A DNA stretch of 56,560 nucleotides from positions 1 to 56,560 of the IMG/VR virus record IMGVR_UViG_3300035126_000207; one strand, given 5' to 3'. Below the pieces are notes generated by a model. That model saw nothing but the letters and a program-made list of their open reading frames with translations. It did no database searches and was not told the origin of the DNA. Below are positions 175 to 53,280 of this stretch, in pieces. The stretch comes from a virus. The position numbers and the translations under genes are program-made. Every line of letters begins with the position of its first letter. Position 1 is the first letter of the stretch.

Positions 175-1383
175 ATGTCCGAGCGGTATCCCGGCGGCCT
201 GATCCGAAAGACACCCCCGACGATCACTCCCCCGGTTGCGGGGGAGGGTGGCAGTGCGTCCGGGGTCTGGACTCTGGCGGATGTCTTGGCGGGGGAAAAA
301 GCGGACATCTGGCCGAAGCCTGTGTTGCCAAGGGCGCTTTATGCTTGGGGTTCTGGAGCTTCCGGTCAGCTTGGTCAAAACAATGTTATCTCCGCATCCA
401 GCCCTGTCCAAATTGGCGCTCTCACGAACTGGTCACAAGTCTCGGCTGGGTCAAGCCACTCATTGTCCACAAAAACAGACGGCACTCTTTGGGCGTGGGG
501 CTCTGGCTCGCTTGGAAAACTTGGTGATGGATCTGCAATTAACCGATCCAGCCCTGTCCAAATTGGCGCTCTCACGAACTGGTCACAAGCCTCGGCTGGG
601 TCAAGCCACTCATTGTCCACAAAAACAGACGGCACTCTTTGGGCGTGGGGTTATGGTGGCAAGGGCCAACTCGGCGATGGAACTGTCATCAGCCGCTCCA
701 GCCCTGTTCAAGTTGGGAGCCTTACAAACTGGTCACAAGTGTCGGCAGGAAACTCTCATACTGCTTCCACGAAAAGTGATGGAACTTTGTGGGCTTGGGG
801 ATACAACAACAACGGCCAACTTGGTCAAAACAACGTAACATATCGCTCTAGCCCTGTTCAAATCGGAACACTCACAAACTGGCGTCAAGTTTCTGCGGGT
901 GAAAACTTCTGCGCTTCCATTAAAACAGACGGCACCCTATGGTCTTGGGGCAACAACGGCAGCGGTCGACTTGGCGATGGCACAGTCATCAACCGCTCTA
1001 GCCCTGTACAGGTTGGCGCTCTCACAAACTGGGCGCGAGTCTCGGTGGGATCAAATCATTCCTCGTCCATAAAAACCGACGGCACGCTTTGGGCGTGGGG
1101 TTCCAATAACGACGGCCAACTTGGTCAAAATAACACCACTAGCCGTTCTAGCCCTGTTCAGGTTGGCGCTTTGACAAACTGGGCGCAGGTTTCAGCCGCC
1201 ATTTTAGGCTTCATGGCTGTGAAAACAGATGGCACTCTATGGGGGTGTGGTCAAAACGGTAGTGGAGAGCTCGGTGATGCTACCACCGTTACAAAATCCA
1301 GCCCTGTCCAGATTGGAGCTTTGACCAACTGGTTTCAGGTTGCGGCAGGCAGCACCTCTACCCTCGCCATCACCAAAGGCTAA
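175..1383 (+). CDS. RCC1-repeat seven-bladed beta-propeller protein, copy A (putative receptor-binding protein)
   Basis: The 402 residues consist of about 54 N-terminal residues and then seven consecutive RCC1 units, six of exactly 50 residues and a last one of 48. Each unit runs LWAWG...GQLG...SSPVQ.GALTNW..VSAG...KTDGT. Seven units is the number needed to close an RCC1/RLD propeller. The N-terminal stretch contains GVWTLADVLAGEKADIWP, which resembles the short 'GxWTL..a....GxWP' segments at the start of many phage tail proteins and may dock it to the virion. RCC1 folds are best known in eukaryotic exchange factors, but bacterial secreted and phage versions exist. Role as a fibre or receptor-binding protein is inferred from late-gene position. 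Blades 1 and 2 carry a nearly identical 105-bp DNA segment. Confidence 0.9.
   Translation: MSERYPGGLIRKTPPTITPPVAGEGGSASGVWTLADVLAGEKADIWPKPVLPRALYAWGSGASGQLGQNNVISASSPVQIGALTNWSQVSAGSSHSLSTKTDGTLWAWGSGSLGKLGDGSAINRSSPVQIGALTNWSQASAGSSHSLSTKTDGTLWAWGYGGKGQLGDGTVISRSSPVQVGSLTNWSQVSAGNSHTASTKSDGTLWAWGYNNNGQLGQNNVTYRSSPVQIGTLTNWRQVSAGENFCASIKTDGTLWSWGNNGSGRLGDGTVINRSSPVQVGALTNWARVSVGSNHSSSIKTDGTLWAWGSNNDGQLGQNNTTSRSSPVQVGALTNWAQVSAAILGFMAVKTDGTLWGCGQNGSGELGDATTVTKSSPVQIGALTNWFQVAAGSTSTLAITKG
396..650. repeat. Tandem 150-bp RCC1 blade repeat with 104/105 identical bases
   Basis: Bases 396-500 and 546-650 match at 104 of 105 positions; the only difference is t at 440 against c at 590. The offset of 150 bp is exactly one 50-residue RCC1 blade. 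Other blades of this gene share the layout but differ at many bases, so this pair reflects a recent blade duplication or gene conversion. Confidence 0.95.
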
Positions 1384-3362: not shown

Positions 3363-4075
3363 AAATCCTCGTGATCGGCGACGTCTGCGAGGACATTTAC
3401 GTCTACGGGACGACGGAGCGGAAGAACCCCGAGGCGGCGGCCACTCTCCTGCGGCAGACCCACACGCGCCGATCACCCGGCATGGCGGCCAACGTGGCCG
3501 AGAACCTTCGCGCCTTCTGCGACGTCACCGTTCACTTCCCGTCTGAGCCATATTCCAAGAAGACGCGCTTCTATGCCGAAGATGGGGTGACCCAGCTCAT
3601 GCGCGTGGATCAGGACACTCAGAGCCAGCCCTACAAGGTCAACACGCCTGAGTTCTATTCGAAGTTCGACGCCATCGTCGTGTCGGACTACAGCAAGGGC
3701 TTCATCACCCAAGACAACCTCTTGGCCCTCATCAACGCCTACCGTGGCCCGATCTTCGTTGACACCAAGAAAACGCATTTGAAGCCGCTCTCTGGCCCGA
3801 TCTTCAAGATCAACAGCGTCGAGCATGACAAGCTGAAAAGTGAGCCGGACGATCTGATCGTGACGTGCGGCGCTGGCGGCTGCTGGTACAGGGGCGAGAA
3901 CTTCCCGGCACCCAAGGTTGACGTGGTGGACGTCTGCGGCGCCGGAGACACCTTCCTTGCCGCGCTGGCCTACCACTACACCAAGTGGGGCGACATGCGC
4001 TCAGCCCTTGAGGCTGCCAACCACTACGCCGCACAGGCATGCACGCAGCCGGGTGTCTATGCGATACGTAATTGA
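3359..4075 (+). CDS. hldE (N-terminal domain): PfkB-family heptose 7-phosphate kinase (HldE N-terminal domain type)
   Basis: A 238-residue ribokinase/PfkB protein with GDVCEDIYVYG at the N-terminus, GMAANVAENL (41-50), KTRFYAEDGVTQLMRVDQD (68-86), VVSDYSKG (107-114), VDTKK (134-138) and the catalytic CGAGDTF (193-199). Each segment lines up with HldE-N (GAANVA, KTR...QLIRLD, SDYGKG, VDPKG, GAGDT). HldE-N phosphorylates C1 of heptose 7-phosphate. The protein is about 70 residues shorter than the usual domain, mainly between the N-terminal strand and GAANVA and in the distal loops, but active-site elements remain. In this phage kinase and adenylyltransferase are separate genes with the cupin between them. 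Confidence 0.85.
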   Translation: MKILVIGDVCEDIYVYGTTERKNPEAAATLLRQTHTRRSPGMAANVAENLRAFCDVTVHFPSEPYSKKTRFYAEDGVTQLMRVDQDTQSQPYKVNTPEFYSKFDAIVVSDYSKGFITQDNLLALINAYRGPIFVDTKKTHLKPLSGPIFKINSVEHDKLKSEPDDLIVTCGAGGCWYRGENFPAPKVDVVDVCGAGDTFLAALAYHYTKWGDMRSALEAANHYAAQACTQPGVYAIRN

Positions 4076-13857: not shown

Positions 13858-16248
13858 ATGGGACATGAACTTCAAAAACTGAAGCAGCTATACGGGGTCT
13901 CAACCCCGTCCATGGCCAACTATTCCGGAACTGCGGCTCCGGGAGCGGCTCCGACTGCTGTGAAAGAACTGCTTAAACCTGCAGACCTGCGGGCTCAGCC
14001 GGTTGAGCCAATCAAGCCGACCAAGCCCAAAAATAACGCCCCGGCAGAGGAAAAAGCCGCCTATGAAGCTGCCATGGCACAATACAACACCAATAAGACC
14101 GCATATGATGCGGACTTGAAGGCGTGGAAAACCGAAAAGAGCACATACGATACGGCGATCAAAGACTATAACGCCGCCCTGCCGCAGTACGAAAAAGACC
14201 TCGCTAAGTACAACGCTGATAAGGCCGCTTTTGACGAGCAGGTCCGCAAGTACGGCTTGGATCGTGCCGCCTATGATAAGTACGCCGCCGACTATCAGAA
14301 CCGGATCGGCAACACGAACCTGTACAATCAGGCGCAGTTCAGCACGACCGGCGCCAACGTCCCGGCGTTCACCACGTATTCTGACGCGCAGAAGGCCGCG
14401 ATGGGAATGCCGCCTGTGCAGCAGGCGCCTGTTGCGCCGCAGCCGGAATCAGACGTCGGTGGATTTATCCACTACTGGACTAGAGATGAAAACGGCAACA
14501 TAACCGAACATGGCGGAAATCCTAACCCTGTGCCACAGCCCGGCCCGCAGGACTTCGCTGGCATCGGTCAAGGCGGCTTGAACCAGCAAATCCAGAACTA
14601 CATGGGCACGAACCCGTCCATGCCTGACCTGAATGCGTATATGACTCGCTACGGCATCAGCGACTACGACATCCGCAACGCCATGGGAACGGGGACGCAG
14701 TACGGGACACCGCAGTGGCAGGACACGATCAAGGCTCCGATCTATAGCGCTCCGACGGTCAGTTCGCCGCTTGGCGTAGTGGCGGACACGCTGAACGGGA
14801 CCAACACGGGGACGACCACCGGGACGACCACCGGGACCAACACGGGCACGACGGCCACCGTCTATGACCCCAATCAAACGTATTGGGACGACCCGAATTG
14901 GTATGGTTCGGCTGCATGGCAAGAGTGGAAGTCAAACAACCGAGCCCGTGGTGGCTACATCAAAAGCTACGCCCAAGGCGGCTCAGTCAAAGGCTACCGC
15001 CCCGGCGGCCCGGTTGACATGCTCTACGGCGGCGCTGGCAATGACGCGCTGATGGGTCGCCCTGCAGGTGACAGGCTGACCACGCCTGCGCCAGCTCCCG
15101 TTGACCCCATGGCCGAAATGCGAGCGATGCTTGATCTCTACGCAGCCCCTACCGTCACCAGCGAACAGATTGCTGCTGCCGCCGAGCGTCGCGTCGCAGA
15201 GCAGAAAGCGTTCGAAGACATCCTGCGCTCGCAACTGCAGGACACCGACGGCGTTCCGATGTCCAAGGCCGAGAAGTATTTCCGCCTTGCGGCAGCGTTC
15301 GGCGCGCCCACGAAGACCGGACACTTTGCCGAGAACCTTTCCCTCGTGGGCAAAGAGATGGCCGACCAGTTGGCGGCAAGAGCCGAACTTGAGCGCGAGG
15401 CTCGTGAGAAGAGACTAGGCGTTGATCTGGAGATCCAGAAGATGCGCATGGAGGCGGCTGGCGAGGATTACGACTTGCTGCAAGGCTTGCAGGCCGATGA
15501 AGCCAAGTACCGTCGGGATGTGGCCAAAGAACTGCTCAAAGAGCAGATGGAGGCTGGGAAAAATAAGTTCCGCCGAGCAACGGCAGAAGAAGCGGCGGCG
15601 TATAACGCGGCAGCTGGGCAGTTTGGCCCGGACGGTCGCTTCTATGCAATTGACGTCCCGCAGGGCATGACGATTGAGAGTGACGGCGCTGGTGGTGTCC
15701 GCATTGTGCAGGGGCCAACCGGCACCGGAGGGTCCGGTAAACCGCCGACCGAGGGCCAACTTGCGGGCGCTGGATATCTGCAGCGAATGACGGCAGCTGA
15801 AGAAATTCTGCGTGATACGGAGCGTCGCGAAGGTGTAGTCTCTATCCCGGTTGAGAAGACCATTTTGATGGATACGGGGATTGAAGGTTACGTTCTAAAC
15901 TCCACCGAACAGCAGCTCGCTCAAGCGCAGCGCGACTGGGTTCGGGCAAAACTTCGCGAGGAATCTGGTGCCGTCATTGGCGCAGAAGAAATGGCCGCTG
16001 AAATTAAAACCTACTTCCCACAGCCGGGGGAAGGGCCTGAAGTCATCGCCCAAAAGGCTGAGGCGCGTCGCCGGGCAGAACGCCAGATGCAGATTGGTTC
16101 GGGAACCGCAGCAGAGCAGGCTGGTGACATTTCACAGCCATATGCAGCGCCGATCCGCGCTGATGAGCTGGCGCGCGCAGGGATTGGTGGTGGCCCGGCA
16201 TCTCAACCCGTCGTGATTGATGGCGTTACCATTCGAAAGGTGAACTGA
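13858..16248 (+). CDS. Internal virion (ejection) protein 3, coiled-coil rich
   Basis: 796 residues. Residues about 55-150 form Lys/Ala/Tyr-rich helical repeats (YNADKAAFDEQ, YDADLKAWKTEK), then a Pro/Gln and Thr-Gly-rich linker (TGTTTGTNTG near 320), GGYIKSYAQGGSVKGY basic motifs around 365, and a long charged coiled coil from 400 to 580. It starts with an AGGAG site 9 bp after the previous gene and shares one base with the next. Best read as a structural protein packed in the head or tail; no enzyme motif seen. Confidence 0.72.
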   Translation: MGHELQKLKQLYGVSTPSMANYSGTAAPGAAPTAVKELLKPADLRAQPVEPIKPTKPKNNAPAEEKAAYEAAMAQYNTNKTAYDADLKAWKTEKSTYDTAIKDYNAALPQYEKDLAKYNADKAAFDEQVRKYGLDRAAYDKYAADYQNRIGNTNLYNQAQFSTTGANVPAFTTYSDAQKAAMGMPPVQQAPVAPQPESDVGGFIHYWTRDENGNITEHGGNPNPVPQPGPQDFAGIGQGGLNQQIQNYMGTNPSMPDLNAYMTRYGISDYDIRNAMGTGTQYGTPQWQDTIKAPIYSAPTVSSPLGVVADTLNGTNTGTTTGTTTGTNTGTTATVYDPNQTYWDDPNWYGSAAWQEWKSNNRARGGYIKSYAQGGSVKGYRPGGPVDMLYGGAGNDALMGRPAGDRLTTPAPAPVDPMAEMRAMLDLYAAPTVTSEQIAAAAERRVAEQKAFEDILRSQLQDTDGVPMSKAEKYFRLAAAFGAPTKTGHFAENLSLVGKEMADQLAARAELEREAREKRLGVDLEIQKMRMEAAGEDYDLLQGLQADEAKYRRDVAKELLKEQMEAGKNKFRRATAEEAAAYNAAAGQFGPDGRFYAIDVPQGMTIESDGAGGVRIVQGPTGTGGSGKPPTEGQLAGAGYLQRMTAAEEILRDTERREGVVSIPVEKTILMDTGIEGYVLNSTEQQLAQAQRDWVRAKLREESGAVIGAEEMAAEIKTYFPQPGEGPEVIAQKAEARRRAERQMQIGSGTAAEQAGDISQPYAAPIRADELARAGIGGGPASQPVVIDGVTIRKVN

Positions 16249-18662
16249 TGGCCGACTTTGAGCTGACGCTGCCCGATGGCAGCAAATACGCTGTCACCGC
16301 CGACACCGAGCAGCAAGCCTTCGCTGCTTTGCAGAAAATGCTTGGAGGCTCCATCCCGCAGCCAGAACCCGAGCGCGGCCTTTTGGGTCGTGCCGCAGAT
16401 TGGTTTTCTGGCGCCAATCGAGAAGAAAACATCGGCGGCCCGCTCTCCCTTGAGCTGCCGATGACGTCTGGGCAGTCTGCTCAGATGACCGCGCTCATGG
16501 CTACGACAATGTCGCCTGATCGCCTCAAGTCTGGCATCCTGAAAATTGAGCCTGACGCTCAGTTTCGCGAAGACAGTTTTGGTAACCTTGTCGCCCTTTG
16601 GCCGAGAAAGGACGAGAGCGGGAAGGTCACGGGCTATCAGCAGTTCTACCCGAACCCAGCTGGCCTTGACGTCTCCGACGTTATGCGCACATCGGGAGTC
16701 GTCGCGGCGGCAACACCTATTGGGCGCGCACTGAAGGTTGTTGGCCTACCTACGACTGGCCTTTTGGGTGGCGCAACCATTGGCGCAACTGAGGCTGCGC
16801 TAATTGAGGGGGCAAGTTCCCAGCTTTCCGACGCGCCATACCAATACTCTGACATCCCTTATGGCGCTCTGGGTGGCGCTGGCGGTGAAGTCCTCGGACG
16901 CGCGGTACAGAGACTTGTCGGGATCATCAGGTCTGCTGGGCCTCAATCTGTAGTGGACGCATCCGGGAATCTTCTTCCTAAATATGCTGAAATTGTCAAA
17001 AAAGCTGGTCTTGATCCAGATCAGGTTTCTGCCGCCGTCGCTGCCGACATCACAAATATGGTGAGGTCTGGGGCCGAGGGCAGCCAAGCGGCGATCACTG
17101 CTATGTCTCGCGGGCTTCCAGTGCCTGTCCCTATGACAAAAGGTCAAATCACCGGCAGCGCTGGTCAGCAGCTCTTTGAAGATATGGCTGGCAAGGAAGT
17201 ATATGGAAAAACTGCCGAGGCGCTGATCACTCGCCAGCGCCAGCGCCAGCAAGAAGCTCTGACAGAAAATCTTGACCAAATCCTTGAGGGGCTACGCCCC
17301 GGCTCTGCACCGATTAGCAGGGGCGTGGGCGGCATCAATGCGCAAGAGGCGCTTGTGCTCGCAAGGAAGGCGGAAGGAGCTGAGGCAAACCGTCTCTACA
17401 CTGAAGCGCGCGAAACTACTGCCATGGTGGACCCGGACGCCGCGCTTGACATAGCAGACAGTATGCGCGGCGCATACTCAGAAGGTTACAGCCCGTCCAC
17501 TGCGCCAATCATGTTCAAACTCCTTGATGAGTTTGACACCATTTCATTGGGCGGGAAAACCCCATCAGGAACCGTAGCGCCGGGCGACATCAGGACCATG
17601 ATGGAGTGGCGGCAAAAGGTCTCCAACCTGCGGAAAGGGCCGCCAACTGTAGAAGCCTCTGCTGCTACAGATGTTTTAAAAAGGTTCGACGATCAAGTTG
17701 AAAGCGCGATAAACGATGCTCTGCTGGCTGGAGATGCTGATGCCGTTGCAAAGTGGGGACTAGCCATTAGCAATTATGCAGACTTTGCGTCAAAATGGAA
17801 AAGCAAGGGCGGCGTCCTGAACCTTTTGACTGAAAAAGTAACCCGTGACGGCGAACGAGTTTTGAAGATTGCACCTGAACAGGCTGCTGATGTTATTTTT
17901 GGGGCGACCGTTAGTGGGCTTGCTAGCAAAACTGGCTTAGCTCGAGACTTGACAACACTGAAATCAACGCTCCCCGATGACGAGTGGAACCAGCTTCGGC
18001 AGGATGCTTTTATTCGCCTTATGGACACGTCTAAGGGGGCATTCCGCAGCGGAGAACAGCAGGTTTCTGGCGTCAACTTTAAGAAGGCGTGGGAGAATTT
18101 GCGTGAGAAAAATCCCAGCGTCGTGAATGCTTTGTTCACCCCTGATGAGCGAAAGCTGTTTCAGCAATTTGCAGATGTCTCGGCTCGTGCAACCAATACC
18201 GCTGTCAATGCTTCTAACTCGGCAGCTGCGATGGGTGGGATCATCCAGAGGCTTGCGTCATCGTTTGGCGGAACTCAACTCGCTCGCTTCATGATGACTG
18301 TTCCTCTCGCGCGCGGTTTTACCGAGGCACTGGGTGGCGCTAGGGCGGTCGGGGCGACAAAAGGGGTGGCCCCGCTTCCAAGAACCCCGTTGACAATTGG
18401 TGGCGCTGGGCTGGGGGCTGCGGCGGCTAACACCGAAGAAGGGCGCAGGCAGATTAATTCAATTCCGCCTGTTGTCGGTAACACGTACAATAAACTCATG
18501 GGCCTTCTCGTGGATGAACAAGGTTTCGCTCGCGGCGGCGACGTGAAGCTTCAGAAGCCCGCTTCTGGCCCTCTGGCGTCCATCTCTCAGGGTCTAAGGC
18601 AGTCTGCCATGCGCTCAGCACCGCTGCAGGCTGTGGCACGCGGCCAGAGGGGGATGCTTTAG
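16248..18662 (+). CDS. Internal virion (ejection) protein 4
   Basis: 804 residues, last gene of the late block. It begins with a short ubiquitin-like or DNA-binding beta segment (FELTLPDGSKYAVTADTEQQ) of the kind found at the N-terminus of many phage internal proteins, followed by GLLGRAADWFSG, a hydrophobic Gly/Ala region (about 145-215) and long helices. The end carries FARGGDVKLQKPASGP and a basic tail similar in style to the other internal proteins. No lytic transglycosylase motif was found. Confidence 0.72.
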   Translation: MADFELTLPDGSKYAVTADTEQQAFAALQKMLGGSIPQPEPERGLLGRAADWFSGANREENIGGPLSLELPMTSGQSAQMTALMATTMSPDRLKSGILKIEPDAQFREDSFGNLVALWPRKDESGKVTGYQQFYPNPAGLDVSDVMRTSGVVAAATPIGRALKVVGLPTTGLLGGATIGATEAALIEGASSQLSDAPYQYSDIPYGALGGAGGEVLGRAVQRLVGIIRSAGPQSVVDASGNLLPKYAEIVKKAGLDPDQVSAAVAADITNMVRSGAEGSQAAITAMSRGLPVPVPMTKGQITGSAGQQLFEDMAGKEVYGKTAEALITRQRQRQQEALTENLDQILEGLRPGSAPISRGVGGINAQEALVLARKAEGAEANRLYTEARETTAMVDPDAALDIADSMRGAYSEGYSPSTAPIMFKLLDEFDTISLGGKTPSGTVAPGDIRTMMEWRQKVSNLRKGPPTVEASAATDVLKRFDDQVESAINDALLAGDADAVAKWGLAISNYADFASKWKSKGGVLNLLTEKVTRDGERVLKIAPEQAADVIFGATVSGLASKTGLARDLTTLKSTLPDDEWNQLRQDAFIRLMDTSKGAFRSGEQQVSGVNFKKAWENLREKNPSVVNALFTPDERKLFQQFADVSARATNTAVNASNSAAAMGGIIQRLASSFGGTQLARFMMTVPLARGFTEALGGARAVGATKGVAPLPRTPLTIGGAGLGAAAANTEEGRRQINSIPPVVGNTYNKLMGLLVDEQGFARGGDVKLQKPASGPLASISQGLRQSAMRSAPLQAVARGQRGML

Positions 18663-18701
18663 CGATCGACCAGCCCGCCGATCTTCCGTAGGTTTAATCG
18701 T

Positions 18702-18785
18702 GAGGGGCGCTAATGGTGGATGGTGAGCCGTAGCGCAGTCTGACCGTCGACCAATACAAAACCGCAGGTTTCGTATGCGCCCCTC
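18702..18785. ncRNA. 84-nt three-way-junction structure between convergent late and early genes
   Basis: Three perfectly abutting helices can be drawn. P1 is GAGGGGCGC (18702-18710) with GCGCCCCTC (18777-18785). P2 is TGGTGGATGGT (18714-18724) with ACCGTCGACCA (18743-18753): ten pairs round one G/G mismatch. P3 is ATACAAAACC (18754-18763) with GGTTTCGTAT (18767-18776): nine pairs, one A/C mismatch, triloop GCA. P2-P3 and P3-P1 join without a free base. Read on the minus strand P3 gains a G.U pair and P2 loses its own, so either strand could fold. GCGCTA (18707-18712) can alternatively pair with TAGCGC (18731-18736). It is not a tRNA. Strand and function are unknown: candidate small RNA, 3'-end protector or bidirectional terminator. 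Confidence 0.6.
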
Positions 18786-18794
18786 GTGATAAAT

Positions 18795-18992
18795 TTATCG
18801 GGTCAGTTTGCGGCCCGCAATCGCTTTTTCCTCGGCCTCGGCCTTGATGCGGGTGATCTGAGACAGGTTTTGGCGGGCCATATATTCAATCAGCTGCAGT
18901 TGCTCCTCAGTCACCCACCACGCCGGTAGTTTGATGTAACCGGCGCGTCGTAAGGCTCGTGCGCCGGGGCTGTTGCTAACGTCGCGGGTCAT
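18795..18992 (-). CDS. Small early protein, function unknown
   Basis: 65 residues, last gene of the leftward early operon. It reads RRAGYIKLPAWWVTEEQLQLIEYMARQ, then a charged helix. Small phage proteins with this AGY.KLP..WVT..QL pattern are common, without known function. It overlaps the upstream gene by 4 bp (ATGA). Confidence 0.8.
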   Translation of the reverse strand: MTRDVSNSPGARALRRAGYIKLPAWWVTEEQLQLIEYMARQNLSQITRIKAEAEEKAIAGRKLTR

Positions 18993-51873: not shown

Positions 51874-53280
51874 ATGGCTACGTCCCAAGGCGGCTATGTC
51901 GACGGCGGCTTTGACCTTCTGAAAGCCCCCGACGCCCCGACCATCACGTCTGTCACGACCAGCATCGGGTCTATGTCCGTGGCATTCACTGCGCCCGCCA
52001 ACCCCGGCGGAAGCGCGGTCACGGGCTATACGGTCACGGCGATCAACGAAAGCACCGGGGCATCCGTCGGCGCGACTGGGTCGGCGTCTCCTATTAGCAT
52101 TTCACCCGGTGGCGGCACGTTCAGGGTTCGCGCTGCGGCGACCAATATCTATGGGCCGGGTCGGGTGTCTGCGTTCAATACGGGGAACGTGGTGTTTTCT
52201 GGGGCGGAGCTGGAGACTTGGGGCGGAAATGGTTTCGGCCAACTTGGACTTGGGGACACGGTTGCTCGTTCTAGTCCTGTTCAAGTGGGAGCGTTGCAAG
52301 CATGGTCAGTTGTTTCATCGGGCGGATACGCTTCAGCCGCTATAAAAACTGACAACACCTTGTGGGCTTGGGGCTACAATGGCACCGGTGGACTTGGTGA
52401 TAACACCATCATTACCCGCTCCAGCCCTGTTCAGGTTGGCGCTTTAACCGTATGGGCAACGGTCGCTGTTGAGGGCAGTGCTACTGCTGCTGTTCGAACC
52501 AACGGGACTCTCTGGACATGGGGCCTAAACAATGCTGGTCAGCTTGGTCAAAATTTCAGCGGCTTTCAAAGGTCTAGTCCGATTCAGGTCGGAGCGCTTA
52601 CAGATTGGGCGAAAGTGACGGCCTTCAAGCAAGGTTCTGCGTTCACCTCAGTCAAAACAAACGGCACTTTGTGGGCGTGGGGGTCAAACGCTTCAAGCAA
52701 GCTTGGAGACACTACGTCTACCTATCGGTCTAGTCCTGTTCAGATAGGGGCTTTGACCAATTGGTATTCGACTGCAGGGGGGTATAGACACTGCATCGCG
52801 GTGAAGACAGACGGCACTTTGTGGGCGTGGGGTTACAATGGGAATGGGCAGCTAGGTCTGAACTCTGTTTCAGGGGTGGCATCCCCCAACCAAGTCGGGT
52901 CGCTGACAACTTGGGCGATTCCCGCCGCCGGGAGAGATCATTCAGCAGCAACCACAACAAACTTCACCTTGTGGGCATGGGGCCGTAACAACCACGGGCA
53001 ACTTGGACAAAACAACCTGACCGACCGCTCCAGCCCCGTTCAGGTTGGCGCGTTGACCAATTGGCAAAAGGTCGACGCCGCATCTTTCCATACGGCATGC
53101 GCAAAAACGGATGGAACGCTGTGGGAGTTTGGTAGAAATAATAACGGCCAGCTCGGAGACAATACGATTGTTAACCGATCCAGTCCGGTGCAGGTTGGTG
53201 CATTGACAGGCTGGTTTGATGTATCTGCTGGCGGCACCTTTGGAAGCGGTTTCACCCTCGCCCTCTACGGAGTAACCTAA
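51874..53280 (+). CDS. FN3 plus RCC1 seven-bladed propeller protein, copy B
   Basis: 468 residues. Residues about 17-105 form a fibronectin type III domain (APDAPTITSVTTSIGSMSVA, GGSAVTGYTVTAI, FRVRAAATNIYGPG). From about 110 there are seven RCC1 units of 50-53 residues (LWAWG...GQLG...SSPVQVGALT.W) ending a few residues from the stop. Strong start site AGGAGG. It is separated by no gap from copy C. Probably a virion-attached adhesin with propeller binding face; binding partner unknown. Confidence 0.9.
   Translation: MATSQGGYVDGGFDLLKAPDAPTITSVTTSIGSMSVAFTAPANPGGSAVTGYTVTAINESTGASVGATGSASPISISPGGGTFRVRAAATNIYGPGRVSAFNTGNVVFSGAELETWGGNGFGQLGLGDTVARSSPVQVGALQAWSVVSSGGYASAAIKTDNTLWAWGYNGTGGLGDNTIITRSSPVQVGALTVWATVAVEGSATAAVRTNGTLWTWGLNNAGQLGQNFSGFQRSSPIQVGALTDWAKVTAFKQGSAFTSVKTNGTLWAWGSNASSKLGDTTSTYRSSPVQIGALTNWYSTAGGYRHCIAVKTDGTLWAWGYNGNGQLGLNSVSGVASPNQVGSLTTWAIPAAGRDHSAATTTNFTLWAWGRNNHGQLGQNNLTDRSSPVQVGALTNWQKVDAASFHTACAKTDGTLWEFGRNNNGQLGDNTIVNRSSPVQVGALTGWFDVSAGGTFGSGFTLALYGVT

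Follow-up and report, generated by a model that had tools for sequence, protein, structure and literature searches.

A predicted phage small-RNA gene with a conserved three-way-junction fold and promoter signature at the end of an early operon

The narrow gap between the convergent late and early genes of a virus recorded in IMG/VR probably holds a gene for a small non-coding RNA, read from the minus strand, equipped with its own promoter and yielding a free RNA that probably works on a partner in the host (probability of about 0.66 for this explanation as a whole). The window analyzed here is the 56,560-nt stretch at positions 1–56,560 of record IMGVR_UViG_3300035126_000207. From sequence comparison, it is very probable that the element is a dedicated phage small-RNA gene, and action of the RNA in trans on a host factor is given slightly less than even odds. 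The structure, the strand, the promoter signature, the approximate extent, the single copy per record and the operon-end position are all supported by computation.

The element fills most of the 132 nt that separate the stop codons of the rightward ORF 16248–18662 and the leftward ORF 18795–18992. This is where the first-pass annotation had placed it, between rightward late genes and leftward early genes. The features of the region are as follows, in window coordinates.

18702–18785, minus strand: structured core of the predicted small RNA, an 84-nt closed three-way junction (fold z of about −5, covariation over 98 relatives, G.U/A.C asymmetry).
18777–18785, minus strand: 5′ arm of P1, GAGGGGCGC (predicted +1 at 18785, at a fixed distance from the promoter).
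18702–18710, minus strand: 3′ arm of P1, GCGCCCCTC (covarying versions in relatives).
18755–18775, minus strand: P3 hairpin, TACGAAACC-TGC-GGTTTTGTA (arm length varies over the family; 3′ strand almost invariant).
18714–18753, minus strand: P2 arm, tipped by the mini-hairpin CUG-CGCUA-CGG (18728–18738).
18692–18701, minus strand: 3′ tail, ACGATTAAAC (RCRA followed by five G-free bases across the family).
18815–18820, minus strand: predicted −35 element, TTGCGG (TTG at −34 to −38 from P1 in 18 of 18 unrelated contexts).
18792–18797, minus strand: predicted −10 element, TAAATT (17-nt spacer; overlaps the stop codon of the upstream gene; TA conserved in 18 of 18).
18795–18992, minus strand: terminal gene of the leftward early operon, encoding 65 aa (its 3′ end carries the predicted promoter of the RNA).
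16248–18662, plus strand: last rightward late gene, 804 aa (from the ORF list; convergent with the RNA).

The description of 18702–18785 as an 84-nt three-way junction was confirmed, with P1 of nine pairs and two more arms. The folding energies are −43.2 kcal/mol on the plus strand and −39.9 kcal/mol on the minus strand, with z scores of −5.19 and −5.10, respectively, against dinucleotide shuffles; on either strand, none of 200 shuffles folded as well. The limits given in the first-pass annotation are correct for the folded core but miss the promoter (18792–18820) and the 3′ tail (18692–18701). It had also suggested a two-state switch formed by pairing of GCGCTA with TAGCGC. Such a pairing exists in the window, but no more than 20 of 98 relatives can form it over all 6 nt; it is not conserved, and the switch is not supported.

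The element belongs to an RNA family of at least 132 loci in IMG/VR, distinct in element plus flanks and spread over a broad range of uncultured aquatic phages. When IMG/VR was scanned with the P1 arms, allowing any 52–80 nt between them, 108 of the 124 matches listed shared the conserved interior, and these 108 represent 68 distinct sequences of 72–96 nt. The remaining 16 were rejected as chance hairpins without this interior. L080, L091 and other P1-only matches, unrelated hairpins with the same arms and no core, score 12–20 bits on both strands under the covariance model R1 and were regarded as background. A scan by the interior alone brought in more members, in which the P1 sequence is different yet still pairs. 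Each of the 38 records with any site has one. The types of P2 and P3 arm are combined in many ways, as would result from recombination exchanging arms between phages.

Within Rfam 15 and the collections and literature searched, the RNA matches no known family, and to that extent the label "previously undescribed" holds. Against Rfam 15, the whole window gave no hit at the gathering score and the element none at E ≤ 10, and three further members gave hits far below the cut-off only. The family was not found in 50,697 phage records, and blastn against INPHARED and PLSDB returned no relatives. Two core patterns found no relative in bacterial and archaeal genomes totaling 257 Gb, the two hits being chance matches inside unrelated sequence. 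No tRNA or tmRNA cloverleaf was detected in the element by ARAGORN. Judged by terminase and portal, the nearest named relatives include Roseobacter, Pelagibacter and other aquatic phages, and an aquatic, perhaps alphaproteobacterial, host is plausible. Two separate proteins encoded in the window (175–1383 and 51874–53280) match phage families annotated "regulator of chromosome condensation."

A search for covariation in related phages, proposed in the first-pass annotation, revealed compensatory changes in all three helices. In an alignment of 98 distinct members, which was fitted to R1 and therefore leans towards that model, 96.4% of pair positions have standard pairs, and both sides have changed in 19 of the 32 pairs. 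Cells with both-side changes number 125, compared with 32 ± 4 in shuffles, and control structures slid along the alignment reach at most 7 such pairs with 37%–47% pairing. A hand-set structure on 41 members, in an alignment not fitted to the model, has 93.7% of cells paired and 11 pairs with both-side changes; slid controls drop equally far there. RNAalifold on MAFFT alignments alone recovered mainly P1, and P2 and P3 required the manual structure. P1 is 99.2% paired, with compensatory changes in 7 of its 9 pairs, and its covarying arm pairs in relatives include GAGGGAGCGC/GCGCTCCCTC, GAGGGAAGC/GCTTCCCTC, GCGAGGGGGCGC/GCGCCCCCTCGC, GAGAGGCGC/GCGCCTCTC and GGGGGCGC/GCGCCCCC. The P2 tip, CUGCGCUACGG, is nearly invariant. 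Its loop, GCGCUACGG, is unchanged in 98 of 98 members, a count biased towards the loop by members fetched with the core pattern, the first, P1-only scan being free of that bias; the stem pairs of the mini-hairpin covary (GC/AU/CG). The 3′ strand of P3 reads GGYUUUGURUUGGUC and barely changes across the family. The element is not coding, because the lengths of the 98 members show no preference for any of the three frames and ATG is scarce (11 of 98, where 62 are expected).

The single sequence looks symmetric, and the earlier observation that different helices pair better on opposite strands is correct for it. Over the family this symmetry is lost in favor of the minus strand. There, non-Watson-Crick pairs comprise 202 G.U and 31 A.C, and because G.U far exceeds A.C, comparison clearly identifies the minus strand of the window as the RNA strand. 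In P3, one side is a constant UUUGU and the 5′ side alternates between A and G, which gives A-U or G-U pairs on the minus strand only and would give A.C clashes on the opposite one. Under R1, the window scores 105.8 bits on the minus strand and 19.9 bits on the plus strand, the latter within the 12–20 bits reached by unrelated hairpins with the same arms.

Upstream of P1, a promoter signature has been conserved. TTG at −34 to −38 together with TA at about −11 to −14 from P1 was found in 18 of 18 unrelated contexts, grouped so that no two stretches are 60% alike, and in 105 of 105 distinct upstream sequences. The same test passes at 0.58% of 15,244 control positions (binomial P ∼5e-41), and at the other end of the element, on the other strand, in 0 of 28. 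The arrangement is TTGCGG-N17-TAAATT-N6-GAGG in the window, TTGACA-N16-TATGGT-N8-GAGG in L133 and TTGCCA-N16-TATCAA-N7-GAGG in L050, and the start point implied by it is the first base of P1. The TTG has no constant relation to the upstream gene, occurring in each of the three reading frames, past the stop codon or at places with no gene, and constraint on codons therefore fails as an explanation. The predicted promoter of the window matches the E. coli consensus weakly, and the case for a promoter rests on conservation rather than on consensus match.

The position of the element was also examined independently of the element itself, by starting from the two small proteins usually encoded before the RNA and fetching their relatives from IMG/VR. 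The RNA lies on the same strand behind the small-protein gene at 75 of 79 and 66 of 79 loci, the latter being relatives of the 65-aa protein. Six of the misses are contig ends, one of which cuts through an element; the others lie in ten records without any site when searched whole, in which further genes follow the small-protein gene. The 65-aa (18795–18992, A3) and 103-aa (A4) proteins form families at the early-operon end in the fetched phages; among named phage records, the 103-aa protein has one relative (MW202675) and the 65-aa protein none. In Roseobacter phage CRP-901, the gap at the convergent point is 2 nt. One class has a different arrangement, with the RNA between the terminase and portal genes, in the same sense and 64–67 nt before the portal start. 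In this setting, a canonical intrinsic terminator, GGCCCGGCG..CCGCCGGGCC-ATTTTC, is seen between terminase and RNA gene, 60–150 nt upstream of the latter (L019, L021, L039, L070, L097, L160).

At 123 of the 132 loci a same-sense stop codon lies no more than 60 nt upstream of the element, and most loci are convergent with opposing genes. Such a position would suit a cis-acting transcription boundary, a hairpin that ends or protects the leftward early transcript and separates it from the rightward late one. L365 (MW202675), a relative without the RNA, has the canonical intrinsic terminator GGGGGCC-ACTA-GGCCCCC-TTTTT at the same early-operon end (3382–3402), and records whose early operon runs into another gene are without the element. 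A boundary is nevertheless unlikely. It could work without an invariant loop and without a promoter signature, the element has no U-run on either strand, and in the terminase-portal class the element is not needed as a stop because a canonical terminator already lies upstream (L019/L039/L070/L097/L160). The bidirectional stop of the first-pass annotation is not supported on present evidence: both flanks lack a U-run, the pairing is strand-specific, and the plus strand is without matching features. Its proposal of a stable small RNA fared better, being supported by covariation in three helices, one clear strand and a promoter that starts at P1.

Behind P1, conservation extends for about 10 nt. 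In 29 unrelated downstream contexts, the tail consists of R, then C at +2 (27 of 29), mostly G or A, and A at +4 (26 of 29), followed at +5 to +9 by bases of which none is G in 145 cells; conservation fades beyond. No intrinsic terminator occurs within 350 nt downstream in any of the 29 contexts. Convergent genes frequently end 0–7 nt from the element, so that the RNA gene is squeezed between its own promoter and the opposing gene. A nuclease-blocking 3′ end, also suggested earlier, may be a secondary property, consistent with a short tail and no terminator, but is not the main reading.

The put RNAs of phage HK022 are structured, begin at the start point of a phage promoter and head long early transcripts. 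By analogy, the element could be a cis-acting RNA at the head of a longer transcript that acts on its own polymerase in antitermination, its structure starting exactly at the predicted start point. A leader role in cis may apply in the portal class, which has a same-sense structural operon downstream. At most loci, though, what lies downstream is the antisense of convergent late genes, where antitermination has no obvious purpose, and in the portal class a separate promoter-like TGCTATAGT stands between element and gene, which makes this explanation improbable. Promoter-like CGGTGCTTTYCTGCTATAGTGCCGC is conserved between RNA and portal gene in L133, L134, L136, L150 and L138; on this sequence evidence, the structural operon of the class likely has a separate promoter.

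The reshuffling of arm types between phages, with flanks that differ on both sides, and the presence of one site per genome could also point to an element acting as DNA: a recombination site, an origin or a packaging site folded as a single strand. There is also a small turn in cumulative GC skew near the site, although it coincides with the change in gene direction. Since the promoter signature is confined to one strand, the excess of G.U over A.C is best explained by RNA, and the flanks show no target-site duplication, such a role is very improbable. Also very improbable is a role as an antisense to host tRNA: with a loop of the common type, the P2 tip (CAGACUGCGCUAC) would pair over 13 nt with the D-arm GUAGCGCAGUCUG of some bacterial proline tRNAs, but loop types B, C and D retain only GCGCUACGG and have lost the rest. 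A transposable element was rejected, there being no target duplication and an outer repeat that is inverted and partly inside the promoter.

For the preferred small-RNA gene, transcription, RNA stability, the 3′ end, a host partner and any regulatory or decoy effect are what we infer, as follows. Initiation by the RNA polymerase of the host, carrying the main sigma factor, would fall on the first G in P1 (about 18785), with the promoter embedded in the final part of the early gene before it. The transcript would be roughly 90–95 nt long, with both ends closed in P1 and the arms P3 and P2 displayed. Trimming or factor-dependent termination immediately after P1 would probably produce its 3′ end, with the short G-poor tail left over. 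Through its invariant loop, the free, stable RNA would most likely bind a factor of the host, either a protein or another RNA. We favor a host partner over a phage partner because no protein cluster common to all RNA-bearing records and no conserved complementary site was found in the phages. The longest complementary runs in the phages themselves, the window record not counted, are 9–12, near shuffled controls. By presence and absence, no protein cluster occurs in all 22 RNA-bearing records compared (partial contigs, simple clustering); the best shared, an endolysin-like protein, is present in 18 of the 22 and also in 4 of the 8 RNA-free records.

Among these 22 records, the RNA is more widely shared than any protein cluster. 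Tentatively, it may represent a new kind of phage RNA, one that commandeers a single host factor or gives protection from it and that is kept by a broad, otherwise very mosaic phage pool. If so, the RNA would be the common tool of a phage guild whose hosts are aquatic bacteria of a single group. Annotation of phage genomes is concerned almost solely with proteins, and here a non-coding gene could be read, together with its fold, strand, promoter signature and rough limits, from comparison of sequences. Even for an element whose single sequence looks symmetric, this approach can settle the strand and the promoter. The work also provides a covariance model, ready for use, for an RNA family that Rfam lacks, as well as a concrete target for the bench, a predicted RNA of ∼90 nt whose invariant loop could serve as bait for the partner.

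Among known systems, the element shares with the HK022 put RNAs a structured RNA beginning at a phage promoter start point, but it occupies the end of an operon and in most cases has a gene running towards it. Like intrinsic terminators and REP-like 3′ end hairpins, it has a GC-rich stem behind a stop codon and between convergent genes; unlike them, it has no U-run and possesses its own promoter signature, an invariant loop and strand-specific pairing. The pRNA of phi29, which works with the ATPase gp16, is likewise a phage RNA of ∼100 nt with a three-way junction and paired ends (PMC5340915, PMC6765105). In contrast, the element has no Rfam match at E ≤ 10, its record encodes an ordinary large terminase instead of a gp16-type ATPase, and its P3 loop varies in length and sequence, without the conserved loop-loop complementarity of pRNA. 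Trans-acting small RNAs encoded by phages are a known class (reviewed in PMC12197685), and the element resembles them as a non-coding small-RNA gene in a phage that is expected to act on host or phage. It differs from them in having no known homologous family, no U-rich terminator and no conserved complementary site found in phages, and in its closed three-way junction and invariant loop.
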